The notes under the pieces: model-generated
Seen by the model: the letters and a program-made list of their open reading frames with translations, nothing else
Told to the model about the DNA's origin: nothing
Databases searched by the model: none
Shown: piece by piece, positions 20,447 through 51,447 of the stretch
How positions within the stretch are numbered: position 1 is the first letter of the stretch
Layout of the letters: each line of letters starts with the position of its first letter
Source: a virus
IMG/VR virus record: IMGVR_UViG_3300042559_002371
Coordinates: 1 to 53,619 of that record
DNA: 53,619 nucleotides
Reading direction: 5' to 3' (one strand)
Made by a program: the position numbers and the translations under genes

Positions 20447-20998
20447 GTGTGGAAACCAGCTAACAACCTAGAATGGCAGTCTGAGGCACTTTGCGCCCTC
20501 CCAAAAAATAATCATTATAGAGACTGGTTTTTCTCAAAAGACCCTCAAGAAAAGTACAAAGCAAAAAACCTTTGTTATGAGTGCCCAGTCAGAGCTCAGT
20601 GTCTTCAGTGGGCGCTAGAGCACAGACAAGTTTGGGGTACGTGGGGCGGTAAAGATGAAAGTGAAATGCGTCGAGCTTTATCTGTTTCATATAAAGGTGA
20701 AGAGATAAAAAGACGTCGTTACCCTCACTGCCCTTATTGCTCAGCTCGTCCTTCTAAATTAGAAACTAGTTCACAAGAAATTCCTGGTGGTGGGAGATGG
20801 ACTGTCGCCAAGATAGTTACATGTACGGTATGTAACTTCTCTTGGCGCAGTCGAACTAGTGTTAACGCAATTGAAGCTTATAAACAGGATCGAATAGACA
20901 AATCTGAAAAGAGAGCTCGCATTCGTGAAAAGAAAGCTTTAAAGCTTGAAAAAAAGCGGTTGGCTAAAAAATTAAAAGCAAAATCAAAAATTAAGTAG
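20447..20998 (+). CDS. WhiB-like protein fused to a zinc ribbon and basic tail
   Basis: A 183-residue protein, nearly twice the usual WhiB length. Residues 10-75 carry the WhiB set: C16, C43, C46, C52 and the turn GTWGGKD (64-70). A second cysteine group, HCPYC (C95, C98) and TCTVC (C126, C129), makes a probable zinc ribbon. The last ~45 residues are an uninterrupted Lys/Arg/Glu-rich helix suited to nucleic acid binding. The GTG start fits a leaderless transcript. The gene ends tail-to-tail with the halogenase gene, overlapping it by eight bases. It is likely an Fe-S regulator with an extra DNA- or RNA-binding module. Confidence 0.87.
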   Translation: MWKPANNLEWQSEALCALPKNNHYRDWFFSKDPQEKYKAKNLCYECPVRAQCLQWALEHRQVWGTWGGKDESEMRRALSVSYKGEEIKRRRYPHCPYCSARPSKLETSSQEIPGGGRWTVAKIVTCTVCNFSWRSRTSVNAIEAYKQDRIDKSEKRARIREKKALKLEKKRLAKKLKAKSKIK

Positions 20999-22496
20999 TG
21001 CTTTTAACTTCTACTTCAAACGGCGGTCTATTAGCTAGGGCTTTTCTCATATCGTTTCTAAACGATTGATAGTGCCCTTGAGCGTATTCAAATTGTTGAA
21101 ACTGGATTAGCTCATCCATTGCTTGTTCTCTTGATATATATCCAAGACCAGCTAAGCTCCACTTCCATAAAGCATCTACCCCCCAGAAATCCATAAAGTG
21201 CATAACAGAAGGAATTCTGCTCTTTGAGCGTTCAATGTAGTTTTCTACTGCAGGAGAGGTAATTTTGTCGAACTTAATAGTTCTCCAAAATTCCGAATCT
21301 TCCCTACCACCTTGATAATGAAAAACTGTAAAATCTTTGTAGTATTCATACATTTTTGATGTTTTAGCATTGTATTTTTCAATAGATGCTTTATTTAGTG
21401 TTTTCTCTTTGGTAGAAGATAAATATTCTTGACAAAAAGTAAATATTTGCATGATAGTAGCATGAATGCTTGTTGCTTCTAGAGGTTCAATAAAAGAGCT
21501 TGCAAGTCCAGTAACTAGAACATTACCTTTCCAAAACTCTTTCAATCTTCCTGATTCATACTTAATATGTTTGATTGGCTCTATAGGATGTCCCATAATT
21601 TTTTCGGCCTCAGCTTGCGCCTCATCATCAGAGATAAAAGCACTGCTATAAACATAGCCGCATCCCCTACGACCGCCTGTTGGAGTTCTCCACATCCACC
21701 CTGAAGACAATGCCTCTGCAACTGTAACTGGTTGTACTTTTTCTCCCCCCTCTTTGTAGGGTATAAGAAATGGCATAGCTCTGTCTACAAGAAGTTCATT
21801 TTTGTAGTCAATCCAACCTATGTCTAGCTTATTAGCTAGTAGCCTATGGAATCCTGTCGCATCGATAAAAAAATCACCTTCAATGATTTCACCAGATTCA
21901 AGCACAACACTGTCGACAATTCCATTACTTGAAACTTTTACATCTTTGATTATAGAATCAATATGTTTTGTATTGGTAGTTTTTGTTATATGCTCTCTAA
22001 AATATTTTGCAACTTTTGGAGCATTAAATTGAAAACCATATCCTCCTTGAGGAGGCATTTTATTTAAATCATAAGCTTGACCAATTGTTGAAGATAGGTA
22101 AGCTTTTTCTGGACCAAACTCCGATATAACATAATTAAATAAATGATCTGGAGACCTTTTTGATGTCTCAGATCCATTAATTGGAGCCCAGTAATGGCCT
22201 TTTTCTTTCGCCCAATTAATATGCTTTAAAGCGTACTTTGGGACAGCATCTACTTTTTCTACAAAATCATTAAAATCAAATTTAATTCTATTTGGATTTA
22301 AAAATTCATTATTACTAAAAAGAGTAGCACCATCTAACAAATCATATAAAAATCCGCTTGTAGCTTCTCCAGCTCCAATAATCCCAATCGATTCTGATTC
22401 AATTACGATTACTTCGTGTGTATTGGGGTTTGAAGCGTGGATAGTAAAAGCAGAAACCCATCCAGCGGTACCTCCACCACAAACTACAAATTTCAT
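20991..22496 (-). CDS. Flavin-dependent halogenase, tryptophan halogenase family
   Basis: The 501-residue protein has the family's FAD-binding start GGGTAGW (7-13), a second FAD motif IDATG (211-215), and GWMWRTP (266-272) in place of the signature GWxWxIP. The catalytic pair is apparently kept: Lys87 in AVPKYALKHINW aligns with the Lys that carries the haloamine or directs hypohalous acid (K79 in PrnA/RebH), and Glu340 in FIEPLEAT aligns with the active-site Glu (E346/E357). Such enzymes need FADH2 from a reductase, which is not encoded here. Substrate unknown; free tryptophan is not implied. The gene is the last of the minus-strand run and overlaps the glycosyltransferase stop (ATGA). Cyanophages carry related enzymes such as VirX1. 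Confidence 0.85.
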   Translation of the reverse strand: MKFVVCGGGTAGWVSAFTIHASNPNTHEVIVIESESIGIIGAGEATSGFLYDLLDGATLFSNNEFLNPNRIKFDFNDFVEKVDAVPKYALKHINWAKEKGHYWAPINGSETSKRSPDHLFNYVISEFGPEKAYLSSTIGQAYDLNKMPPQGGYGFQFNAPKVAKYFREHITKTTNTKHIDSIIKDVKVSSNGIVDSVVLESGEIIEGDFFIDATGFHRLLANKLDIGWIDYKNELLVDRAMPFLIPYKEGGEKVQPVTVAEALSSGWMWRTPTGGRRGCGYVYSSAFISDDEAQAEAEKIMGHPIEPIKHIKYESGRLKEFWKGNVLVTGLASSFIEPLEATSIHATIMQIFTFCQEYLSSTKEKTLNKASIEKYNAKTSKMYEYYKDFTVFHYQGGREDSEFWRTIKFDKITSPAVENYIERSKSRIPSVMHFMDFWGVDALWKWSLAGLGYISREQAMDELIQFQQFEYAQGHYQSFRNDMRKALANRPPFEVEVKSTT

Positions 22497-23572
22497 TTAG
22501 TGGCCTCTTCTTCTGGGTTTAATGCCTTTAAACAAAATTTAAGATTGTCGGCTAATCTCTGATTATCTGGTTCAAGACTAAAAGCATTAGTTGCATGCTC
22601 GACTGCTTCTTCAAATTTACCTAAATTAAAAGCAGCAATGGCAGCAAAATCATGAGGAGCAGCTCCCCAAGCTTTTGCTTCACACAAATACTCAAGAGGT
22701 TTTTCAACAATTGCTAAAGCATCTTTAGAAGCCTCGTAACACTTCTCCCAGTCTTTGCGTTGATAATAAATCTCTGCTAAATCAACAAACGGTTCGCGGC
22801 GGCCGGGAGCTTGATCGATTGCTCTACGAAACCAAATCTCTGCTTCTAATGGAAGACTCTTACCGATAAAACGCATAGAGGCAGCACGCTCAGGTGCCCA
22901 ACGGGCTGTAGGCAGATCTAAGTGACGCTTAAGCTCTACTGCTGCTTCTTGGTATCGACCATAGAAGTAGAGCTCACGTCCATAGTAAAAAGCATTTCTA
23001 TCGTTGTATGGATCTTCTTGAACAGATAAGGCAAGCAAAGGTAGATACTGAGAGCGAGATTTTGTTGGGTCAGGGTGGTGGTGAGTTTGAATTTCTTCAA
23101 TCCACTCTTGAACTTCTTCGCGACCATAAACATACAAACACTCATGCACTGGGTGACGCCAACGATAGTTTTTTCGAGCATGAATGTGGTCGTAGCTGAA
23201 TTCAAGACCTGGAGTCCCGTCATCATTCCATGACCAGATGTGCTTATATCTAGGTCTTGTTACCCCACGCTGCCACGCTTTCTCGAGGGGACCTCTCCAA
23301 TTAGGAGTGATTACTTCATCCATATCGAGAGAAATACACATATCAATATCAATTGGAAGTGCGGCCATTGCTGCGTTTCGAGCATCATCAAATCTCCATG
23401 GGGAGATTCGGACATCTACAACATTAATTCCTAATTCTTTAGCACGCTCGACGGTTCCATCGGTAGAGCCCGTGTCAGCTATCAGCAAGTAATCAGCATC
23501 TTTTGCGGCTTCATACCATGTGTCAACAAATTGTCTTTCGTTTAATGCAATTGTGTATATAGCTACTTTCAT
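22493..23572 (-). CDS. Family 2 glycosyltransferase with C-terminal TPR repeats
   Basis: The 359-residue protein begins with a GT-A fold: YTIALNERQF, ADTGSTDGT (33-40) and the metal-binding DxD SLDMDEVI (83-86). Residues ~170-350 are helical repeats of TPR type (for example AAFNLGKFEEAVEHATNAFSL). It would transfer a sugar from a nucleotide donor onto a protein or glycan, with the TPR part binding the acceptor. The start has AGGA at suitable distance. It is coupled by ATGA to the halogenase and follows a methyltransferase, so the three probably act on one product or in one phase. Acceptor unknown: fibre protein or host surface glycan. Confidence 0.88.
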   Translation of the reverse strand: MKVAIYTIALNERQFVDTWYEAAKDADYLLIADTGSTDGTVERAKELGINVVDVRISPWRFDDARNAAMAALPIDIDMCISLDMDEVITPNWRGPLEKAWQRGVTRPRYKHIWSWNDDGTPGLEFSYDHIHARKNYRWRHPVHECLYVYGREEVQEWIEEIQTHHHPDPTKSRSQYLPLLALSVQEDPYNDRNAFYYGRELYFYGRYQEAAVELKRHLDLPTARWAPERAASMRFIGKSLPLEAEIWFRRAIDQAPGRREPFVDLAEIYYQRKDWEKCYEASKDALAIVEKPLEYLCEAKAWGAAPHDFAAIAAFNLGKFEEAVEHATNAFSLEPDNQRLADNLKFCLKALNPEEEATK

Positions 23573-23581
23573 GTGAGCATC

Positions 23582-24157
23582 CTACCTTGTCTTCTTGTAC
23601 CAGCGCTGATAGCCATCAACTAAAATTTCTAAACGGTCATAATAAACAGCATGAAAAGCTTCAATAGCCAACCTTGGCTCATTTAAGTACCCAAGACCAG
23701 CTGACCACTGATAATCATCAAAACCTATTATTCCATTTACATTTAAACATTCGTATGCATTAATTGCGTCTTTTATAACACCATAAGAAGTGTGGTCCCC
23801 ATCTACATAAATAAAGTCATATTTTTCTAGATTGTTTTTAAAAAACCAATCGCTAGTTGACTTTACTTTTACTATTTTTTTAGATTGTTGGCCAGCCTCT
23901 GTCTTTACATCATAAAACTGTTCAACTGATTCCCAATTCATTTGATGATGAGAAGGCTCATCTGAACCTTCCCAAGTATCTACATCAACTAGGACTGACT
24001 CGCTATTGTATTTTAAAATATTGTCATACAGCCAAAGAGATGCGTCCCCTGTATATGCACCAATTTGGAGCATGCGAACAGGTTTATTTAAAAACTGCAT
24101 CAGATGGTTTTTAAAGTTTTCTTGACCATCATTTTCAAACCAATTGGGATATGTCAT
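23582..24157 (-). CDS. Class I SAM-dependent methyltransferase
   Basis: A 191-residue protein with the Rossmann-type SAM site: motif I MLQIGAYTGDAS (29-40), an acidic residue after strand two (VDVDTW, 58-62), and FIYVDGDHTSYG (115-126), followed by GIIGFDDY. This layout fits the Methyltransf_24 group, often found beside glycosyltransferases in glycan-modification clusters. AGGA precedes the ATG. It lies directly downstream of the fibre genes and ten bases before the glycosyltransferase. Target (sugar or protein side chain) is not evident. Confidence 0.82.
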   Translation of the reverse strand: MTYPNWFENDGQENFKNHLMQFLNKPVRMLQIGAYTGDASLWLYDNILKYNSESVLVDVDTWEGSDEPSHHQMNWESVEQFYDVKTEAGQQSKKIVKVKSTSDWFFKNNLEKYDFIYVDGDHTSYGVIKDAINAYECLNVNGIIGFDDYQWSAGLGYLNEPRLAIEAFHAVYYDRLEILVDGYQRWYKKTR

Positions 24158-24191: not shown

Positions 24192-24821
24192 TCACACGTA
24201 TGGGGTAGCACCACTGTAACTTGAATGAGGAACTCCAGTCCAAAATCCCCCTGATGAGCCATCAAAATAGGTGCCTACAGTAGGAGTTCTCTCTGCCATA
24301 ACACCATCTACATAGAAAACGTCTGTGTTTGAGGCAGAAGTAGTTACTATTCTCATAGCAAAAAAGTTGGCTCCCGACGTCCTCTCAAAAGAACCACTGA
24401 GTCTCACCCATCCGTCGGCCCCTGTAACAGATTGAATTCCTATATTTCCGCTTGAAATAGCTGCTGCAGCACTGGTAGTTGTGTATTGAAGATGGCGTAG
24501 ATAGTAAGTTGCATTGTCGTTTAACGGGTCAAGTTTTATATAAGCACTAATAGTCCAAACATCAGAAGCAGATATAAATGGAACTCTTTCTACAGTCTGA
24601 ACTCCTCCTCCAGAAGTATTAACAACTCTTAGTGATGCTGACCCGTTATTAAACTCATCTGTAGATCTAGATAGGGTTGTCCCATTAAAAGAAGTCCAGT
24701 CAGAGATGTCTACTTCAAAACTTGGATTTTTTATATAATTAACTCTATAACCAAGCCTAAAAGCTTCGGCTGGATTTTTTAAATTACCAGCTCCCGCAAT
24801 ACAACCTACGTTTACTGGCAT
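24192..24821 (-). CDS. Carbohydrate-binding-module-like virion protein
   Basis: The 209-residue protein has a single jelly-roll-like domain of the CBM4/9 type: NYIKNPSFEVDISDW at the start, then NNGSASLRVV, WTISAYIKLD and FYVDGVMAE strands. These domains bind polysaccharide chains. The first ~30 residues (MPVNVGCIAGAG) may be an anchor. I start it at the ATG at 24821, one base after the upstream stop. A TTG at 24869 would add 16 residues that overlap the previous gene. It is the last structural gene of the run. A glycan-binding accessory protein of the tail is likely. Confidence 0.7.
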   Translation of the reverse strand: MPVNVGCIAGAGNLKNPAEAFRLGYRVNYIKNPSFEVDISDWTSFNGTTLSRSTDEFNNGSASLRVVNTSGGGVQTVERVPFISASDVWTISAYIKLDPLNDNATYYLRHLQYTTTSAAAAISSGNIGIQSVTGADGWVRLSGSFERTSGANFFAMRIVTTSASNTDVFYVDGVMAERTPTVGTYFDGSSGGFWTGVPHSSYSGATPYV

Positions 24822-24822
24822 T

Positions 24823-25284
24823 TTAAGATATCGCCAAATCTCCCACAAGAATCCATTCGTTTGTGTCAATCTTTACAGCTGACACAACTGAGTTGGTTGT
24901 TCTTGTTTTATTGGTTGGTGTAGCTCTTAGCGTGACTCCCGTGGCTCCAGCAATGGTTAATTGACCTGCTCCATATTGAATAAAGTCTATTTTTTGACCA
25001 ATTACAAAAGCATGTGAAGCATTAGTAGGTAGAGTGGCAATCATTGCTGCACCGTTGTCACACTTTAAAATTTTTCCAGCGTCTGACAATACAACTCCAA
25101 AAGCAGAGCTCCTTGTTTCAACAACTTGAGCAGTAGACCAGTCGCCTTGAGGTCCAGTTATACCTTGAATGCCTTGTGCACCAGTAGGTCCTAAGATACC
25201 TTGTGGTCCAGTCGGTCCAGTAGCACCAACAGCAATTGGCTCCCAGATACCGCCAGTAGAGTTATATTTCTTGATAATTGGCAT
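24823..25284 (-). CDS. Short collagen-like fibre with beta cap domain
   Basis: The 153-residue protein has an N-terminal segment (MPIIKKYNSTGGIWEPIAVG), about nine GXY triplets ([10 protein letters not shown] type), and a C-terminal ~95-residue beta domain. The ATG at 25284 is chosen because AGGAG stands seven bases upstream; a longer start at 25314 would overlap the preceding gene. The C terminus (AGATGVTLRA ... VVSAVKIDTNEWILVGDL) is clearly related to the C terminus of the 629-residue fibre at 41631-43520, so the two share a cap module. Such caps usually trimerise the collagen stalk or bind receptor. Confidence 0.75.
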   Translation of the reverse strand: MPIIKKYNSTGGIWEPIAVGATGPTGPQGILGPTGAQGIQGITGPQGDWSTAQVVETRSSAFGVVLSDAGKILKCDNGAAMIATLPTNASHAFVIGQKIDFIQYGAGQLTIAGATGVTLRATPTNKTRTTNSVVSAVKIDTNEWILVGDLAIS

Positions 25285-25292
25285 ATATGCTC

Positions 25293-26879
25293 CTATGGAA
25301 TAGCGTGCGTCCAAAGAGCACGGTTAGAGACGGCAATTGATGAAGAAACTACAGAAGACGGTAAATCAGTTTGACCTGATACAAGTCCTGTAACTCTTGG
25401 AGGAAGTGCAAGTATATTGTTTACACCAGTTGAAGCAAGGTGTGCGTGCCCAATAACTGTTGGTAGTGTTTGTGAACTTATAAGCAAAAGACCGTATGCA
25501 TATAGAGTTCCAGCAGTTTTTGACCAAGAGCTAGATAGATTTACTTCATAGCCTGTGTTTGCACTAGCAAATATTGTCGTATCGTTTGCTGTTGAAGCAA
25601 CCAAAGTTAAATCGCCTGTATTTTCATTAACTGAATATACAGCAAATTTAATCAATGAAGGTGTAGCACCTGCAGCAGTACCGCATGCCATAGAAAGTTT
25701 TGTGATTGTTTCTGTTTTAATTGCTCGACGATAGGTTAGTAACATATTTCCTGATGTACCGTAAGCAACACCAGTAAGCGGAGCTTTTCTATCAATACTT
25801 CCTTCACCATTAGTCAAAATATCTATATCACCAAGTCTTGTAGTTAGACCAGTAACTTGACTTGTAGAAATAGTTATTTCATCTCCACCACCAACTGCGT
25901 GAGTTGCTGCATGCAAAAGAATTGCTGACTCTTGAGTAGTGTCTACCCAAATAAGATCTGTATTTGCAGGTGGAATAGCTCCAGAAACTAATCCTGTCGC
26001 ACCTACCGAACCAGTTGCCCCAGTTGGTCCTTCAGGTCCTGTGGCTCCAGTAGGACCTGTGGGTCCAGTAACTCCAGTTGGTCCTACTGGACCAGTTGGA
26101 CCACCAGGAATACCAGCAGGACCTGTGGGTCCTGTTACACCATCTGCTCCACCTGTACCTTGTGGACCAGTAGCACCTGTTGCACCCGTTGGTCCAGTCA
26201 CACCAATTGGACCAACAAGTGCCCATTCTTGGTTTAGATCAGACCATGCATAAACAAATTCTTGAGCAACAACGTATGCGTCACCAATAGCTCCAATTGG
26301 GTTATCAGATTGCAGAAGATTTAAAGTTGCATAAGTTCCAAGAATACGAACACTAGACCCTTGAGGTCCAGTAGGACCAGCAGGACCTGTCGGACCAAAT
26401 GGACCAGCAGGACCTGTTGGACCCGAAGGTGCGATACTAGCTATAGTGTTAAAACCAGAGCCTGTATAAAAACTTACTTCATCAGTATCGGTATCAATCC
26501 AAATATCTCCAACTGAAGGAAATCCTGGTTGATTTGCAGAATAAGTTATATTTGAACGCCCTGCTTGGTCGTACACAATAGTTGAGGAAAAATTAGCAAG
26601 AGAGGTGCTAGATTTAACCCAGATTTGGTCTCCAACATTAAGAGCAAATCTAAAAGTTTCAAAAGATTGACCAACTGCTACCGATAAATTATCTACAATA
26701 TATGCTCGAGTAGCCTCTACTCCCAGTGCTTCCGCAGGTTCGATATAAATAGTTACAAGGGTTGCAACATTGGCGCGATTTGCGACAATAACAGAAGCAA
26801 CACCAGTAACGTCATTTGTAGCTAAAAGGGTAGGAATATTGGAATTAGGAGTCGATAATCCCAGTCGTTTGGTTGCCAT
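25293..26879 (-). CDS. Collagen-like tail fibre, anchor type B
   Basis: A 528-residue protein. Residues 1-105 form a beta-rich anchor ([35 protein letters not shown]), paralogous to the first ~105 residues of the 792-residue fibre. GXY stretches (about 155-180 and 230-300) surround an inserted GDAY...YAW...W domain. The C-terminal ~200 residues are a globular beta domain containing [12 protein letters not shown], often seen in phage fibres. AAGGAG precedes the ATG. The gene lies between the short fibre and the subtilase. Homotrimer expected from the collagen repeats. Confidence 0.8.
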
Positions 26880-26932: not shown

Positions 26933-28522
26933 CTACACCGTGGCTCTAAAGAAGGAGTATTTCCTCTGTGATGCCATAGGAACATAAGCTATTTTTGTCT
27001 CTCCCCCGTGGACGCTGTGTTGGTTAGTATAATCATTATTTTGTCCACTTGTATAGAGAGCTGGGAGGGCTCTGCTCTTTATAAAATGAGCTACCTGTCT
27101 TGGTTCCCAATCGGGGTGCATCTGAAAAACTAAAGCAGCTATACCAGCTATTTGAGGGGCTGCCATTGATGTGCCGCTTAAAAGTTGCTGCTTGAAAGAG
27201 CCATTAAGAAAGTATGGATTGTTTGAATTACTATCGTTTGTTTGGCTCATAGCACTGATAATTCTTGAACCTGCCGCATAAACAGAAATTCCTGGCCCTG
27301 AATTACTAAAAGCTGCTTTTCTTTCCTCCCCTTGAGGAGTTGTTTCATGATCCATAGCTCCAACAGTTAGAACAGAATCTCGAGCATTTATGCTAGCGCC
27401 TGGAGTCCCACCTCTATGATAAAAAAAGTTACCAAAATCTGTATTTATAAAGTTGTCGTAATCTAAACCAGATTCAACATCTATTTTTAGATACTCGTTT
27501 CCAGCAGCATTGACAAATAAAATACCCGCTTGAGCACCAGTAACAATGTCAAAATCTACCGATGAAACCCTAAAGGGGTAGAAGTATGTTGAAGGAGCTA
27601 CTAATGCACCAGTGTGTCCTCGAGCAGTAGATAAAGTAGCACCAGTCCAAGGCGTTCCTCTATATGTACCACCATTAATTGCGTAAAGAATTTCTGATTC
27701 ATCAAGACCAAAGGAGAAAGATTCTGAATCGGCTCTATGAAAAATACCAAAGCCCCAGCTGTTTACAACTACCGTAGGTCTTCCATTTGTTTTATTATTG
27801 TGCCAACCGATAAGAACATCAAATGCTGTTGCCACATCTAAACCACCTCCAGTATCTCCTGGACCTTTTAAACCTTCTAATTTGATAGAAAATATTTGAG
27901 AATTTTTTGCCCAACCAAAAGTTTTACCTGCAACAGTAGCTGCTACATGGGTACCGTGACCATCATAGTCTTGATAAAAACCAGGTGGCATGCTTCCAGA
28001 AATCCCGCTGACTTGAAACCAGTCGACTAAATTTACTCTGCTAGCTCCAGAACCATCTAAACTTTGAAACTCTGGATGATTAGCTTGAATACCACTATCA
28101 ATAATTACAACGTCAACATTGCTACCATCAAGAACATAGTCATATGTTCCACCAGGATCGCTTAGACTTGTTCCATAAATATTTGTTGTAAGGGCATGTC
28201 TTAAAAGCCCCCAGTTGGATTTTGGACCAGTTTCTGTAGAGGTTTTATCAAAAGTTCCAACTTGAAAAGCTAATTTTGTAGGCTTAAAAATAGACAAATC
28301 TTGAACATCAGTAACTCTTGAATCCTGACGTAGAAATTCTGCTTCTTTGTCTGTCAACCAATAGGAAGTATTGTGAGGATTGTCTGGTCTTGGATTAGCA
28401 ACTTCTACTTCTCGAATTGGAATAGTTACTAAATTACTTCCATCGCGCAGCAAGTCATCCCACAAAGAGTCTGTTTTTTCAAGACTGTCTGCGGTTACTG
28501 TGTATTCCTTGTATTCACTCAT
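26933..28522 (-). CDS. Subtilisin-like serine protease (S8 family)
   Basis: The 529-residue protein has a complete catalytic triad: Asp142 in VVIIDSGIQANHPEF, His192 in DGHGTHVAATVAG and Ser452 in LLSGTSMAAPQIAG, with oxyanion Asn342 in VNAAGNE. Residues 1-125 look like an inhibitor or propeptide-like domain (strand-helix pattern, LTDKEAEFLRQDSRVTDV). No signal peptide or membrane segment is present, so a virion-bound or intracellular enzyme is more likely than a secreted one. It sits between two collagen-like fibres in the same run. It could mature fibres, degrade host surface proteins, or both. Substrate unknown. Confidence 0.9.
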   Translation of the reverse strand: MSEYKEYTVTADSLEKTDSLWDDLLRDGSNLVTIPIREVEVANPRPDNPHNTSYWLTDKEAEFLRQDSRVTDVQDLSIFKPTKLAFQVGTFDKTSTETGPKSNWGLLRHALTTNIYGTSLSDPGGTYDYVLDGSNVDVVIIDSGIQANHPEFQSLDGSGASRVNLVDWFQVSGISGSMPPGFYQDYDGHGTHVAATVAGKTFGWAKNSQIFSIKLEGLKGPGDTGGGLDVATAFDVLIGWHNNKTNGRPTVVVNSWGFGIFHRADSESFSFGLDESEILYAINGGTYRGTPWTGATLSTARGHTGALVAPSTYFYPFRVSSVDFDIVTGAQAGILFVNAAGNEYLKIDVESGLDYDNFINTDFGNFFYHRGGTPGASINARDSVLTVGAMDHETTPQGEERKAAFSNSGPGISVYAAGSRIISAMSQTNDSNSNNPYFLNGSFKQQLLSGTSMAAPQIAGIAALVFQMHPDWEPRQVAHFIKSRALPALYTSGQNNDYTNQHSVHGGETKIAYVPMASQRKYSFFRATV

Positions 28523-28534
28523 ATACCAGTCCTA

Positions 28535-30913
28535 TTAAATGGTTGATATATCTTTAATAATAATAGTGTTACCCATAGCTGGATGTGATAAGCATTGATA
28601 TCTATATCCTCCAGTTATGTTTTGACGAATTCTCCAATACAAGGTTCCAGATGTTTTACCTTGTGCATTTGAAGCAGTGCTTATAATTCCGTTAGTGTCT
28701 ACGTGAACAAGACCTTCGCTGAAGTTGTTTCCATCGGCTGTTTGAATAGCAAACGGGTGTCCAGCATTAGCAAGATTAAATGCAATTGTTGTTCCAGAAA
28801 TTGCATAAACAACTGGATTATTAGATAATCCGTAATGACTAGTAAATCTATACGCTGTTGTTCCTTGATTAGATACTGCTAACGTCGCTATAGCTGACTC
28901 ATAAATTTCATCTACTGTAACTGATGCAGATGTAATATCGTTGAGCGATCCAAAATTTGTAGTTCCAGCAGGACCAGTCGCACCAGTCGCACCAGTTGGG
29001 CCTGTAACTCCCGGACCAGTTGGACCAGTGATACCTTGAGGCCCCGTTACTGCAGGTCCTGTGGCTCCAGTTGGTCCTGTAGGACCTTGAGGACCAGTAG
29101 GTCCACCAGATGGGCCAGTAGGTCCTGTAGCACCTGTAGGACCTTGACCAGTTCCCTCAATCTCAACCCATTGAGTGCCGTTGTAGTAGTACAACTGAGA
29201 ACCAATAGGTGCATCACTAACATAAATAATTGCACCAGCACTTGCTGTAACTGATGAAAGATTAGCTACAGTAGTGCTATAAAGTTTTAGAGGAGAGTTT
29301 GCAATAACTTCTGTTGTAGCAGCTAAAGTAAGTGTTGTAGGAGAGCTAACAGTAAAAGTACCTAATCCTGAGCTAGGAGGTAAAATTTGTGAGCTTTCAA
29401 TTTGAGTTACTTTTAGTGTTTGTGTTGAAGCATCAAACTGAATTCCTTCATTGGTAACTCCGCCTTGAACTCCTTGAATATTTTCGTATAATCCAACAAA
29501 TGTTGTTGCGTCTAAAGTTTGAACAACAGCAACATTTGAAGCTCCAGCTTGTCCTTGAGGCCCTACAGGACCAGTAGCTCCCGTCGGACCAGTTGGGCCG
29601 CCAGAAGGGCCTGTTGGACCTGCTGGACCAGTTGACCCTGTAGAACCTGTTGGTCCGACTGGACCAGAAATTGCTCCAAGATTTATCCAAGTAGAGCCAG
29701 TCCAAAAATAAGTATCTCCTGTATCAAGAGTTACATATGCATCAGCTGTTGTATTTCCACTTGAAGGTAGAGATGCAAAATCAACAACACTTCCCTTAAT
29801 AGTGATATTTGTTCCAGCTGGACCTTGAACACCTGTCGGTCCTGTAGGTCCTGTAGGTCCTGCAACAGTGCTTGCGGCACCAGTTGCACCTGTAGGTCCT
29901 GTACTTCCTGTTGGTCCTGGAATAACTGAAGGGTCTCCCTGTGGACCAGTAGTTCCACGAGGTCCTGTTGCACCCGTTGGTCCAGTTGGACCCTGCACAG
30001 TTGATGCGGCACCTGTCGCACCTGTGGCTCCAGTTGGACCAGTTGCTCCATAAATAGGACCAACATTTGACCACTCAGAGCCAGTCCAAACATAAACATC
30101 TTTTGTATCAAGAGTTACATACGCATCCCCAGTCGTGTTCCCACTGGATGGCAATGCAGCAAAATTAGCTACCCCGCCCTTTAAATCAAGACTAGTTGCC
30201 TGAGGCCCAGCTGGGCCAGCAGGACCTGTAGGACCAGAAGGTCCAATATCTCCACCAATTCCAGCAGGGCCTGTCGCACCTGTTGGACCGACGGAACCTG
30301 TTGGTCCTGTAGGTCCACCAGATGGACCAGTAGCACCTGTAGCACCTGCAGGACCTGTAGCACCCGTTGGCCCAGAAGTAACTCCTGTACCAACAATTTC
30401 CCAACCTGTGGTTGTTTTTTGTTCTAGGGCGCCTCTTCCAGAGTTAAGCTCTGTGTTAAATCGAATATAGCCAACTTCAGCTGTAGACCTTCTATCTGCT
30501 GTAGGACCAGCATCTACATAGATAGTGTTGTACAAACCTCTAATCTCTTTATTAGTAAAAGTTTGTGACAAATTTTCAGGTAACGCCGAGTCCTCTTGAG
30601 CGATACCTACGCAGCTAAATGAAGCATTAGGAGTGCTTGAACGTACCCAAAGTGTGTCACCTGGATTTATAGCAAATCTAAATGTTTCAAAAGAAGCCCC
30701 GATAGGGATATCAAGATTAAAAGCAATGTAAGCAAAGTTGGACTGTTGAACAGCATTTGCTGGTGCAATCCAAATACTAACCTTACATGCTGGTACTGCT
30801 ACTACACCTCTATTTGCGACAATGACTGAAACAAGATGTGCATCAGAAAATGTAGCAAGAACTGTGTCAGTATTACCCGTTGGGTTTGATATCCCAAGTC
30901 GCTGAATTGGCAT
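28535..30913 (-). CDS. Collagen-like tail fibre with C-terminal cupredoxin-like domain, anchor type B
   Basis: A 792-residue protein. Residues 1-105 are the same anchor type as in the 528-residue fibre ([38 protein letters not shown]). Several GXY stretches alternate with two inserted [18 protein letters not shown] domains and a beta segment near 500-590. The last ~140 residues look like a cupredoxin: a GHPFAIQ strand and [15 protein letters not shown], which align with the His and Cys-x2-His of plastocyanin and pseudoazurin. The axial Met position seems to be Asn. Copper binding is possible, but the domain may be purely structural. Confidence 0.8.
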
Positions 30914-39827: not shown

Positions 39828-40478
39828 TTATGTACCTAGCCACCAACTTGTTGTAACACCTAGAGAGCCCATTGGACCTGTAGGACCAGCAGGACCTGTA
39901 GATCCACCCTGAGTTTCAATAAATACTCCATTATAAAAAACGTAAGTAATAGCAGTGTTTGTGTTAAACCATGCATCACCATTTACAGATGTCAGTAAGT
40001 CAGGCGGATTTGGGCTGGCAGTGAACTTACCTACTGGACCAGTAGGACCTGTAGGACCAGGAACTTCAGACTGGGCACCTGTAGGTCCTGTGGGACCAGT
40101 AGTTCCACGAGGTCCTGTTGGACCTTGTGGACCAGTTACAGTTGAATCTGCACCTGTAGGGCCAGTAAAACCTCTAGGTCCTTGCTCTCCTTGCAATCCT
40201 TGTGGACCAGTCGGACCTTGAGGTCCAGTTGGACCGATAGGACCACTTGGACCTGCTACATCAGAAACAGGACCAGTTGGACCCTGAATACCCTGAGCAC
40301 CTGTTGCACCAGTGGCTCCTGTAGCACCAGTAGGTCCTTGAATACCTTGTGGACCCGTTGGACCTGTAGGAGTTACACGCTTAGCTTCCCAAACTAATCC
40401 AGTCCAGACCCAGGTTTGACCGCCAGCGGTGAACTCTTCTCCAACCACTACGGGTGTTGGAAAGTCAATTGCTGCCAC
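39828..40478 (-). CDS. Short collagen-like fibre, anchor type A
   Basis: The 216-residue protein has a GTG start with AGGAG upstream. Residues 1-35 are anchor type A ([29 protein letters not shown]), shared with two other fibres of the cluster. Residues ~37-150 are almost pure GXY triplets rich in GPTGPQG and GATGATG. One [20 protein letters not shown] insert follows, then a short GXY stretch and a small tip ending in SWWLGT. There is no large C-terminal receptor domain, unlike the other fibres. It may be a linker or a shortened fibre. Confidence 0.78.
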
Positions 40479-41630: not shown

Positions 41631-43520
41631 TTACGCCTGTAGGTTTCCGCTCAAAAGCCATGAATTAGCTCCAAGCTTTATTAAAGAAGCTACTGCATAA
41701 CGCTGTTTACTTGTATAACGGCTTCCTTCGCTTAAAACACTCACTCCAGCTGCTCCAGTAACACTAAACACGGCGCTTCCCAATTGAGTAAGGACAATTT
41801 GAGATCCTGTGTCAAATGTATATCCGCCAGTTCCATCTGCTGGAACAGTTACAACAGTAGGAGAAGAGCTGTTTAACTTAACTAAAGAAGCGTTGTCGTT
41901 AGCAGTAAGAGTTACAGAAGATAGATATTGAGGACCAGTTAGGTTGAAGAAGGCAGGTCCTGTTGGTCCTGTAATACCTTGAACACCTTGTGAACCTTGA
42001 GAACCTGTTGGTCCTGTAGGGCCAGGAACTGTAGAAGCTGAACCAGTCGCACCTGTTGGTCCTACTGGCCCTTGAATTCCCTGAGAACCTGTTGCACCTG
42101 TTGGCCCGACAATACGTCCAGTATTCTGCCAAATAGTTCCGTTCCAAACCCACAAGTCTCCTGTTGCGGTAATAACATAAGCATCGTTGATTTGGTTTCC
42201 AGTTGCTGGAAGGTTTACATCTTGGGCAACAGTACCTTTAAATTTAATTGATGCACCTTGAGGACCAGTAGGGCCAGTAGGTCCAATTTCACCAGCACCG
42301 AGGAGCAATCTCCAACTTGCATATGTATTACCCTCGCCATTTATTTTGTCTACATCCATGGTGATTGTTGTTCCCACGATTGTAGTGATAATGCCTTCCA
42401 TATAATCTGTCGGGAAGGTAGCGCTGGCTAAACGAGCTCTTGTTCCAACAGCAAAAGCATCAACTTTATTGACAATAAAGTTTTCAGAACCAAGAGAAAT
42501 TGAAAGATTGCTTGTAGAAGTTACTCCAGCAAAACTTGCACCCGCTGGACCACTAGCACCAGTAGGACCAGTAACAGCAGGACCTGTTGGTCCTGTAGGG
42601 CCAGGAATAGTTGAAGCAGCACCAGTAGGACCAGTAACAGCAGGACCTGTTGGTCCTGTAGGGCCAGGAATAGTTGAAGCTGCACCTGTTGCACCTGTAG
42701 CACCTGTCGCACCACGAAGACCTGCTAGACCTTGCTCACCTTGAGGACCTGTTGGGCCAGTAGAACCAGTTGGACCTATTGGACCACCAGCAGGACCTGT
42801 TGCACCTTGAGCACCTGTTGCACCAGTTGGGCCAGTGACAGATGGACCAGTAGCACCTACTGGACCAGTAGGTCCTACGAATCCACGAGCTCCAGTTGGA
42901 CCCTGAGGACCTTGTAGACCTTGCGCACCAGTTGGACCAGTTACACCTTCTTCACCCTGAGGACCAGTAGGTCCAAGAGCGCCAACTGGACCAGTAGGTC
43001 CACGTTGACCTTCAGGGCCAGTTGCACCTTGAGCACCAGTAGGACCAGCAGGTCCTGTTGGGCCAGTTATATCAAAACCACGAGGACCAGACGGTCCAGT
43101 GTTTCCTTGTGGCCCTGTAGGACCAGTAGAACCTTGTGGACCAGTAGGACCAAGAGCCGTACTCTGAGGACCAGTTGCACCCGTTGGTCCAGTTGGACCT
43201 TCACTACCACTTAAACTTGAAGCAGATTCAACCCAGTAGTCATCAAAATAAACATAAATTTTTCCTGTAGCGGTGTTAAGCCAAGCATCACCTGCAGAAG
43301 CTCCAGTTGGTGGAGTTTCTGAGGCTAATAAAACAGTTCCACGAGAGCCAGTTGGTCCTGTAACTGTGCTTGCAGCACCAGTTGGTCCTTGAGGCCCAGT
43401 AGGGCCTACAACTTGAGAAATAACTAAATTCCAAGAAGTTCCATCCCAACGCCAAGTCTGAGTGCCTGATGTAAATAAATCATTTACTGTAGGAGAATTA
43501 GGAAAATCAATAGCTGCCAT
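41631..43520 (-). CDS. Collagen-like tail fibre, anchor type A, with beta cap
   Basis: A 629-residue protein. The start has GGGAGGAGAT upstream. Residues 1-35 are anchor type A ([28 protein letters not shown]). Long GXY stretches (about 38-60, 105-330, 425-435, 480-530) are broken by one GDAWLN...YVYFDDYW insert, one beta domain ([15 protein letters not shown] ... GRLL) and one [20 protein letters not shown] insert. The C-terminal ~105 residues are the cap shared with the 153-residue fibre ([11 protein letters not shown] ... [12 protein letters not shown]). A perfect 63-base tandem duplication lies in the stalk. Expected to be a trimeric fibre. Confidence 0.82.
42555..42680. repeat. Perfect tandem duplication, two 63-bp units
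   Basis: Units 42555-42617 and 42618-42680 are identical base for base and encode two copies of a 21-residue GXY segment ([21 protein letters not shown] on the minus strand). Absence of synonymous differences indicates a recent in-frame duplication, which changes stalk length by 21 residues. Confidence 0.95.
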
Positions 43521-43534
43521 TTTTCATCTCCTCC

Positions 43535-44236
43535 CTATAGCTGTGACTCGTATGTAAATTGAATAAAAATTTTGTCATTTCCAGAAAACAAAAACGGAGT
43601 GCTTTCTGTAACTGCCACACCTTCATCAAATGTTGCGGACTGAGAATGCATAAATAGTTCTACGCGGTTTGTAAAGTTGTTGTTGAAAATTGCTGTACCA
43701 AAATAGTTAATTCCTGGACCTTCGTCACGCATAACAACTTGTCCTACTGGTTGATAGTTTGCAACAATTCCAGCGGATGGAAGACTTAAAGAATAAGTAC
43801 CACTACCTCTGTTAAATCCAGATGTACCAGCTTGAATTCTTATCTCACCAAAAATAGTTGCACCTACGTTTGTATATCTTCCTACAATACTTCCATTTCC
43901 AATTTGAGGATTAGTTGTACTGCCATACCAGACAGGTGTGTATAGAGTCCAAGGAGTGATTGCAAAAGATCCTGTAGCACCAGTTGGGCCAGTAGCACCA
44001 GGAATCAGAGAAGGAGCACCAGTTGGACCTGTTGGACCTTCCAATCCTGCTGGACCTGTAGGACCAGTTGCTCCAATAGCTGTCGAGTCTGCACCAGCTG
44101 GACCTGTAGGGCCAGTCGGACCCTGAGCACTAGTACGAACTAGTCGCCAAGCAGTACCATCCCAGAAATAGGTATTAACTCCATTTGTGTAGACCTGATT
44201 TAGCGTCGGGTTATTTGGAAAATCAATCGCTGGCAT
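43535..44236 (-). CDS. Short collagen-like fibre, anchor type A, with beta-sandwich tip
   Basis: The 233-residue protein has anchor type A in a variant form ([29 protein letters not shown]). About 18 GXY triplets follow, then a ~145-residue C-terminal domain ([45 protein letters not shown]). The pattern YTPVW ... G.Y.LSLP is common in phage fibre tips and capsid spikes. It lies between the giant collagen-like protein and the 629-residue fibre, with small gaps and AGAGGAGATAA upstream of the start. Confidence 0.78.
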
Positions 44237-44261: not shown

Positions 44262-50123
<5,862 letters not shown>

Positions 50124-50229
50124 TAGCGGTGCTCCAGGTCTCGATAGCAAGCGACGGAATCTGCACAGGCAAGCAGACTCCTAGACTGTTCTCTATTGTA
50201 CGCTCTTATAGACATGGCTATGTCTGAAA

Positions 50230-51447
50230 TTATGCAGACCTAGACACTGATAAAACGCTTATATCCCTTCTTGGGTTGTAACCATCGCCAACTACCAAAG
50301 TTAGAACTCCTGGAGGCGACTCAAGACCATGACGGTCCCTAAACCACGCACTTCCGGGGTCAGTTGTTGGGGCTTGAAGCCATAGACGGTTACCTATATC
50401 CATACTCTTAAATGAGTGATAATGCCCAGAAATCCACACATCACAAGCGCCTAAAGGTGTTTGACCAGCGCTTTGCTCAGACAAATACTTGACCACATCT
50501 CTTCCTGTCTGGTGCCCATGGAAAAGTCCAAGCATCACACCAGAAACATTGACTGCCAAAGTCTGATGTTGTTTTTCAGGGAATCTAAATTCCACATGAG
50601 ATAAGTTTTCATTCTCTGCGCAAGCGTCTTGTACAGCACTAGCAATTTCAACATTCCATCCATCTGACGGGTCAGCAGAAACCTGACGAGTTACCTCGTC
50701 GTGATTACCATTGACTACTGGCACAACAATGCGTTCTGCAAATGGAGCAAAAGCTTTAATTTGAGCTAAAAGAAGACGTCTAGCAACTCTAGTTTGTTCT
50801 GTAAGCCCTAAATCAGAGGCTGCAAGTCCTTGAAGCTTTCCATTCTGGCTTACATTTCCCTCAACATGGTCGCCTGGAAGTGGGATCACAACGGTTCCAA
50901 TTGACCTACCAATTTTTCTGAGTTCGTGGAGTCTATGAACTCCCATCTCCGTCAAAGTTAAAAGTCTTGAGACTGTTGAATCCGTCCCTATGTCCCCCTG
51001 CTTTTTACCAATTTGTTGGTCGCTTGGAGCAAATATGTATGACAAATCTCCTGTAATTTTTTGAGAGACTTTTGAAGGTCGCCATTTTGAAACTTCTTGT
51101 AATAATTTTTCTAAATCAAAATCAAGTTCTGAATTACGATGTGCAACTGTAGGAACTAAACTTGCTCGAAAAGCTTCAAGCCAGTCACCTTTATGATTTT
51201 GCCATCTAGATTTTCTTATTGCCGTGATTGTCCAATCATCTGGACTTAAATCAAATTCTTTTAATAATTCAGTGCCATCAGGACTATTTCCTGCTGGTCT
51301 AGGAGTGGAGACAAAATAACCTTCACCCTTTTCTGGGTCTATCTCGAGGCGAGGTCTCCAAGACTCAGGGGTATTAGTCGCTCTTATATCCGAACCGCTG
51401 GGGCCAGGAGAAATTAGCTCGGTCAGCTTGTCGGTTAAAGACGACAT
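50230..51447 (-). CDS. Calcineurin-like metallophosphoesterase
   Basis: The 405-residue protein carries a dinuclear phosphoesterase core: SDQQIG (143-145) at motif I, PGDHVEG (GD 192-193), VNGNHDE (247-250), LFHGH (310-312) and SGHYH (341-344). In motif I the usual D-x-H is D-x-Q, which removes one standard metal ligand. Residues 1-130 are an extra N-terminal region, including LSPDDWTITAIRKSRWQN. Actinophages often encode such proteins; proposed substrates are nucleic acid ends or nucleotides, and none is certain. Its start overlaps the HTH gene by one base (TAATG). Confidence 0.85.
   Translation of the reverse strand: MSSLTDKLTELISPGPSGSDIRATNTPESWRPRLEIDPEKGEGYFVSTPRPAGNSPDGTELLKEFDLSPDDWTITAIRKSRWQNHKGDWLEAFRASLVPTVAHRNSELDFDLEKLLQEVSKWRPSKVSQKITGDLSYIFAPSDQQIGKKQGDIGTDSTVSRLLTLTEMGVHRLHELRKIGRSIGTVVIPLPGDHVEGNVSQNGKLQGLAASDLGLTEQTRVARRLLLAQIKAFAPFAERIVVPVVNGNHDEVTRQVSADPSDGWNVEIASAVQDACAENENLSHVEFRFPEKQHQTLAVNVSGVMLGLFHGHQTGRDVVKYLSEQSAGQTPLGACDVWISGHYHSFKSMDIGNRLWLQAPTTDPGSAWFRDRHGLESPPGVLTLVVGDGYNPRRDISVLSVSRSA

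Follow-up and report, generated by a model that had tools for sequence, protein, structure and literature searches.

SgtA of Clostridioides difficile, a protein of 358 amino acids (aa) in which a GT-A domain is followed by C-terminal tetratricopeptide repeats (TPR), is encoded beside bclA3 and places beta-O-N-acetylglucosamine (beta-O-GlcNAc) on Thr residues in the Gly-Pro-Thr repeats of BclA3 (PMC7157674). VirX1, a flavin-dependent halogenase of cyanophage Syn10 (PDB 6qgm), is reported to iodinate small aromatics, the halogenase of S-CREM1 is read in the literature as making chlorotryptophan, and flavin halogenases that act on peptides, namely MibH and SrpI, also exist. Actinomycetia phage DSL-LC01 (OQ999401) carries a further halogenase, the only enzyme considered here that its authors discuss in the available portion of their paper, where it is treated as an auxiliary metabolic gene of secondary metabolism (PMC10611076). 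The subject of this report is a locus in IMG/VR virus record IMGVR_UViG_3300042559_002371, where genes for a flavin-dependent halogenase (HAL), a glycosyltransferase (GT) and a methyltransferase (MT) lie together at the end of a run of fibre genes; the whole stretch of 53,619 nucleotides is called the window, and this record of 53.6 kb is possibly a fragment. What the locus suggests is virus particles that carry a chemical decoration, and not an accessory of metabolism. The favoured reading, to which a probability of roughly 0.55 is given, is that GT would glycosylate Thr in the fibres, MT would methylate the added sugar and HAL would halogenate an aromatic residue of a fibre protein.

Layout of the locus

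The module and the gene that bounds it are arranged as follows.

20991..22496, minus strand: HAL, flavin-dependent halogenase, 501 aa, accessory gene (PF04820, phrog_2928, fold model)
22493..23572, minus strand: GT, GT2-TPR glycosyltransferase, 359 aa, part of the core, proposed to glycosylate Gly-X-Thr fibres (Glycos_transf_2 and TPR)
23582..24157, minus strand: MT, S-adenosylmethionine-dependent methyltransferase, 191 aa, core gene, proposed sugar O-methyltransferase (Methyltransf_24)
20447..20998, plus strand: WhiB-like regulator, converges on the module and marks its border (PF02467, E 7e-17; cluster c1)

As the preliminary description had it, the open reading frame listing places the three genes on one strand in the order MT, GT, HAL behind about 26 kb of fibre genes, and the stop of GT overlaps the start of HAL in the ATGA by which the two were said to be coupled. 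The WhiB gene at 20447-20998 overlaps the end of HAL, and the left part of the window carries tape measure, minor tail, polymerase and helicase genes. Two WhiB genes and kinship with DSL-LC01 point to a phage that is probably actinobacterial. Where the synonymous rate (dS) was measurable, omega was 0.03-0.09 for HAL, GT and MT, which corresponds to purifying selection on all three.

The glycosyltransferase and Gly-X-Thr collagen-like proteins

GT consists of a Glycos_transf_2 domain and then TPR, matches phrog_13126 in a profile search (E 1.7e-119) and is modelled with helices at 173-351. Its best solved relatives by sequence are GmaR, designed TPR proteins and SunS, and in fold it is closest to SunS and ThuS, which are peptide S-glycosyltransferases; its TPR part resembles OGT and GmaR. 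MT is a small Methyltransf_24 protein (E 9e-13; 49.5 bits against a cut-off of 26.3), for which the role of a sugar O-methyltransferase is proposed. No name above cut-off was returned for HAL, GT or MT by an NCBIfam search.

In bacteria this glycosyltransferase family is associated with collagen-like proteins. Searching bacterial genomes with the GT profile yielded 44 loci at 36-53% identity, in Mesorhizobium, Bradyrhizobium, Dongia, Bacilli and Actinomycetota, and 37 of them have a Gly-X-Thr-rich collagen-like gene in the 8 kb flank; in L195 and L196 this gene stands directly before GT. When whole genomes were searched for six tandem Gly-X-Thr codon sets, with the same pattern read backward as control, arrays were matched in 19 of 23 genomes that hold a bacterial GT locus, and the control almost never matched. 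Array positions were listed for seven genomes: in six, all listed arrays fall at the GT locus, and in the seventh some are on another contig, which may carry the remainder of a gene that the assembly split. The methyltransferase recurs as well. Locus L194, from a freshwater metagenome-assembled genome (MAG) of Actinomycetota, reads collagen-like gene, two intervening genes, GT, MT and a further GT, its MT being of the same family as that of the window (E 1.7e-73); this MT family also adjoins GT and a collagen-like gene in bacterial locus L225, and the Mesorhizobium GT is followed by a protein that has a Methyltransf_24 domain fused to it.

The reverse approach set 120 viral stretches, each with ten Gly-X-Thr codon sets in tandem, against 80 control loci. 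GT was present in 20/120 of the former and 0/80 of the latter, the first count being a lower bound since the viral stretches are short. Within the window itself, fibre proteins contain 498 Gly-X-Y triplets, 54% of them with Thr in third position, and at related phage loci Thr is third in 2458 of 4086 triplets. Taken with the architecture and neighbour of SgtA, the bacterial linkage, the triplets of the window and the reverse test lead to the prediction, held with good confidence on the basis of sequence and analogy, that GT glycosylates the Gly-X-Thr repeats of fibre proteins. The preliminary description had tied the module to the fibres by position only. For GT this has been superseded, as its bacterial relatives adjoin Gly-X-Thr genes and the fibres of the window are rich in such triplets; for the substrate of HAL it still holds, since that substrate is proposed from position.

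The fibre run occupies 24192-50150 on the minus strand and encodes collagen-like proteins, a subtilase-like protein and an immunoglobulin-like protein. Six proteins match collagen in Pfam, one of these at a score under the cut-off, and a short collagen-like open reading frame comes in addition.

24192..24869, minus strand: fibre-type protein directly upstream of MT (weak Laminin_G_3/ConA-like match; cluster c9, kept at many related loci)
24823..25314, minus strand: short collagen-like fibre protein (10 Gly-X-Y triplets, 4 with Thr; cluster c12)
25293..26879, minus strand: collagen-like fibre protein, candidate substrate (PF01391, E 6e-11; Gly-X-Thr in 18/32 triplets)
28535..30913, minus strand: collagen-like fibre protein, candidate substrate (PF01391, E 7e-16; Gly-X-Thr in 43/71 triplets)
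39828..40478, minus strand: collagen-like protein, candidate substrate (PF01391, E 3e-14; Gly-X-Thr in 19/40 triplets)
41631..43520, minus strand: collagen-like fibre protein, candidate substrate (PF01391, E 2e-28; Gly-X-Thr in 39/85 triplets)
43535..44236, minus strand: collagen-like protein, candidate substrate (weak PF01391, E 5e-5, below cut-off; Gly-X-Thr in 9/15 triplets)
44262..50150, minus strand: giant collagen-like fibre protein of 1962 aa, main candidate substrate (PF01391, E 3e-71, 9 stretches; Gly-X-Thr in 139/245 triplets)

Cluster c12 co-occurs with the window-type HAL lineage. The run also contains, at 26933-28522, a protein of the subtilase family (S8) that may act as a protease of the virion or in the maturation of fibres, and a Calcineurin-like phosphoesterase match at 50230-51447 stands at the start of the minus-strand run.

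Further glycosyltransferases were seen near members of the GT family. In L202 (4210-8004) and 25 related rhizobial loci, a multi-domain glycosyltransferase of about 1264 aa precedes GT with a Gly-X-Thr gene nearby, and by its sequence this set is a collagen-like glycoprotein locus of Mesorhizobium and Bradyrhizobium, of which we know of no description. Additional protein-type glycosyltransferases, assigned to PF11397 (GlcNAc transferase) and Fringe-like, are encoded at phage GT loci L066 (7880-9322) and L061 (9279-9968), the latter adjoining a collagen-like gene.

A conserved core with an optional halogenase

In viral contigs, a scan with GT found 67 GT loci, with MT at 58 and a halogenase at 30, and the co-occurrence search proposed in the preliminary description thereby revealed a linkage kept in related phages. 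When only loci flanked by at least 2.5 kb on either side were counted, after dereplication at 95%, 22/24 had MT and 11/24 a halogenase. The three-gene module therefore recurs, but as an MT-GT core with an optional and movable halogenase and not as a fixed unit. At related viral loci the MT-GT unit almost always closes the fibre run and meets a convergent WhiB gene. The halogenase stands after GT in the window type, between MT and GT in L040, L041 and L043-L046, and one gene further in L038; on the GT tree its presence and position require about seven changes, four of them forced by strongly supported branches. A fixed three-gene cassette is ruled out by this optional and changing placement.

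Halogenases of the window type and of the MT-HAL-GT type belong to different clades, a joint clade being rejected by the approximately unbiased (AU) test (p 0.0067), and a single clade was rejected at p 4e-6 when DSL-LC01 was included; a single origin of the halogenases at the MT-GT locus is accordingly ruled out. Given the changing position of the halogenase and the separate clades, MT-GT is taken as a core that acquired halogenases on two or more occasions.

A second halogenase was observed elsewhere on three phage contigs. On the actinophage contig IMGVR_UViG_3300042294_004068 (L012, L183), about 60 kb separate two halogenases that differ from each other, and the second adjoins endolysin-like genes; the contigs behind L006 and L016 have two halogenases each.

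Family, fold and motifs of the halogenase

HAL matches Trp_halogenase PF04820 over residues 2-457 (E 5e-80) and phrog_2928 (E 4.5e-90) in profile searches, and the nearest PDB folds of its structure model (predicted local distance difference test, pLDDT, 89.6) are Thal, RebH and PrnA, with a template-modelling (TM) score of about 0.84 and a Foldseek E of 5e-39 for Thal. The GxGxxG motif for flavin adenine dinucleotide is present as GGGTAGW, and WxWxIP reads WMWRTP, in which both Trp and the Pro are retained and Ile is replaced by Thr; some relatives have WMWKIP. FIEPLE matches the tunnel motif FX[DE]PX[EFL], and in Fx.Px.Sx.G the Ser is replaced by Ala (motifs as described in PMC8407142). Across 18 relatives, down to 28% identity, there is no variation at K87, E340, W267, W269, FxEPLE or the GGGTAGW loop, and in an alignment with VirX1 the two residues K87 and E340 fall on its lysine and glutamate positions. 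The Lys87/Glu340 pair that the preliminary description took to be intact is thus borne out at the level of sequence, by this invariance and by the alignment with VirX1. Halogenases of free tryptophan in the PrnA/RebH/PyrH groups are marked by the Trp1 (ATIP/ATVP/ATFS) and Trp4 motifs (PMC8269204). Trp1 is absent from HAL, where the position reads ATSG, and Trp4 was found in no phage halogenase examined, HAL included, so free Trp is not the expected substrate.

VirX1 of Syn10 comes directly after Gly-rich fibre-type genes, and a Gly-rich gene lies at most four genes upstream at 65/71 VirX1-type loci, with 2-oxoglutarate-Fe (2OG-Fe) oxygenases downstream of the halogenase where checked (Syn10, S-CREM1). 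In the tree, the VirX1 relatives and the window clade are separate, each with 100% support. The halogenases of S-PM2 and Syn1 (L086, L087) group with the window clade at moderate support and have Gln at the catalytic Glu (EPLQ), a replacement by which they may have no halogenating activity. The DSL-LC01 halogenase has Asp at that position and lacks the second Trp, and a search of viral contigs for its close relatives found none.

A separate observation concerns phrog_7084, a family with weak similarity to DUF6065 that neighbours halogenases in unrelated phages (L090:11072-11860, L183:7270-7974, L038:11077-11787, L020:616-1359). It directly follows VirX1 in Syn10, is present at 59/80 VirX1-type loci, immediately precedes the second halogenase in one actinophage, and in L038 separates GT from HAL. 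A profile search for a structural relative returned none; from its placement, phrog_7084 may be a halogenase partner.

Proposed function and alternative explanations

In the proposed series, the module would be expressed late, and GT would add a sugar, GlcNAc by analogy with SgtA, to Thr in the Gly-X-Thr repeats of the phage's collagen-like fibres. MT would then O-methylate this sugar, and HAL, consuming FADH2, O2 and halide, would place a halogen on a Trp or Tyr side chain exposed on a fibre protein, leaving a fibre surface that may differ in adhesion, stability or recognition. Transcription signals add little to this series: a promoter scan gave sites no more numerous than in shuffles, and terminator-like sites (11 against 5.7 expected) lie mostly inside genes and are hence uninformative. 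Fibre decoration, one of several roles suggested in the preliminary description, is now the likeliest, given the Gly-X-Thr linkage and the repeats in the fibres of the window. Within the series, the GT step is well supported and the HAL step weakly supported; halogenation of a fibre protein is a candidate role for HAL, judged slightly less probable than even. In its favour, two separate halogenase clades were recruited to the MT-GT locus, VirX1-type loci follow fibre genes, the free-Trp binding motifs are absent, and peptide-acting flavin halogenases exist.

Several observations weigh against this reading, which draws on sequence, genome context and models. No such GT occurs within 100/120 of the viral Gly-X-Thr stretches, and a halogenase occurs in 0/120. 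Halogenases also lie away from fibre genes in S-PM2, Syn1, P-SSM2 and HTVC008M, on the endolysin side in L183 and on the replication side in L185/L186. A halogenase is missing from about half of the MT-GT loci, so glycosylation does not depend on HAL; the surroundings of HAL revealed no flavin reductase; and among Trp and Tyr positions in neighbouring fibres none tracks halogenase presence convincingly, kinship being a confounder.

The alternative that survives best keeps fibre glycosylation for GT and MT and makes HAL independent cargo, whose product in the infected cell would be a small halogenated aromatic such as halo-indole or halo-tryptophan and for whose gene the end of the fibre operon is a tolerant insertion site. 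Such cargo would be gained and lost, as HAL is, and its slot would admit unrelated genes, as it does phrog_7084; the halogenases of S-PM2, Syn1 and P-SSM2 stand among metabolic genes, and the literature annotates phage halogenases as metabolic or antibiotic genes. It is nevertheless considered unlikely, since two separate halogenase clades sit at one type of MT-GT locus, the VirX1 clade of another phage lineage likewise follows fibre genes, HAL has no free-Trp binding motifs, and no other gene of small-molecule biosynthesis was recognised beside it.

Distinctly less probable is a target on the host surface, where during infection GT, MT and HAL would modify an envelope molecule or a surface protein of the collagen-like kind, one possible effect being a block on superinfection. 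The freshwater actinobacterial MAG of L194 makes a substrate in the host conceivable, as it encodes its own Gly-X-Thr protein with GT and MT nearby, and phage glycosyltransferases have been explained in this way before (PMC10202952); against this, the phage has plentiful Gly-X-Thr substrates of its own just upstream on the same strand, and related loci keep the module where the structural run ends. Least probable, by a narrow step, is that HAL no longer halogenates and acts on fibre proteins as another flavin monooxygenase or an oxidant producer, as the altered WMWRTP, the Ser-to-Ala change and the replaced catalytic Glu of S-PM2, Syn1 and DSL-LC01 (the last also without the second Trp) might suggest, because the window clade keeps Lys, Glu, both Trp and FxEPLE without change and purifying selection is strong.

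Beyond this locus, virion decoration by halogenases may be wider. It is tentatively suggested, as a proposition that would sooner fail than hold, that phage halogenases of at least three clades (the window, MT-HAL-GT and VirX1 types) are halogenases of virion-fibre proteins, recruited repeatedly beside the glycosylation or oxygenase enzymes that end fibre operons. To our knowledge, halogenation of virion fibres has no precedent as a post-translational modification of virions, and halogenated, glycosylated fibres, if true, would be an unexpected phage surface chemistry. The analysis gives the large phrog_13126-type glycosyltransferase family of phages and bacteria a proposed function in glycosylating Gly-X-Thr collagen-like proteins, and it challenges the customary reading of phage halogenases as metabolic genes. 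We know of no native substrate of VirX1, a useful iodinating enzyme; if fibre halogenation is true, that substrate would be sought among the neighbouring fibre proteins.

Comparison with known systems

The individual parts of the locus are of known kinds. SunS/ThuS and GmaR, the nearest structures of GT, likewise join a GT2 domain to a helical or TPR part, although SunS and ThuS are only about 14% identical to GT. Their substrates differ from the one proposed here: SunS and ThuS modify Cys of bacteriocin peptides, and GmaR, a flagellin glycosyltransferase and antirepressor, modifies flagellin. PrnA, RebH and Thal share their fold (TM about 0.84) and catalytic Lys/Glu with HAL, which differs in having neither Trp1/Trp4 substrate-binding motifs nor a biosynthetic cluster around it. 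VirX1 resembles HAL in fold family, catalytic positions and its place after Gly-rich fibre-type genes, but belongs to a separate clade and has 2OG-Fe oxygenases and phrog_7084 for neighbours instead of MT-GT.

The nearest phage counterpart is DSL-LC01, in which a halogenase and GT are adjacent with a 4-base overlap, follow collagen-like genes and are themselves followed by a convergent WhiB gene; its gene order is reversed, no MT is part of the unit, and its halogenase is only about 20% identical to HAL. The preliminary description knew of no described actinophage module that joins the three enzymes; the adjacency of a halogenase and GT is already in the published DSL-LC01 genome. In text searches, with thin coverage of subscription journals, no paper linking phage halogenases to fibre modification was found. 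SgtA-BclA3 of C. difficile differs in that BclA3 is a spore protein and not part of a virion, and in that no halogenase partner is mentioned in the accessible part of the source (PMC7157674); with GT, SgtA shares the domain order, the length (358 against 359 aa) and the linkage to a collagen-like gene, a likeness of architecture and gene context.

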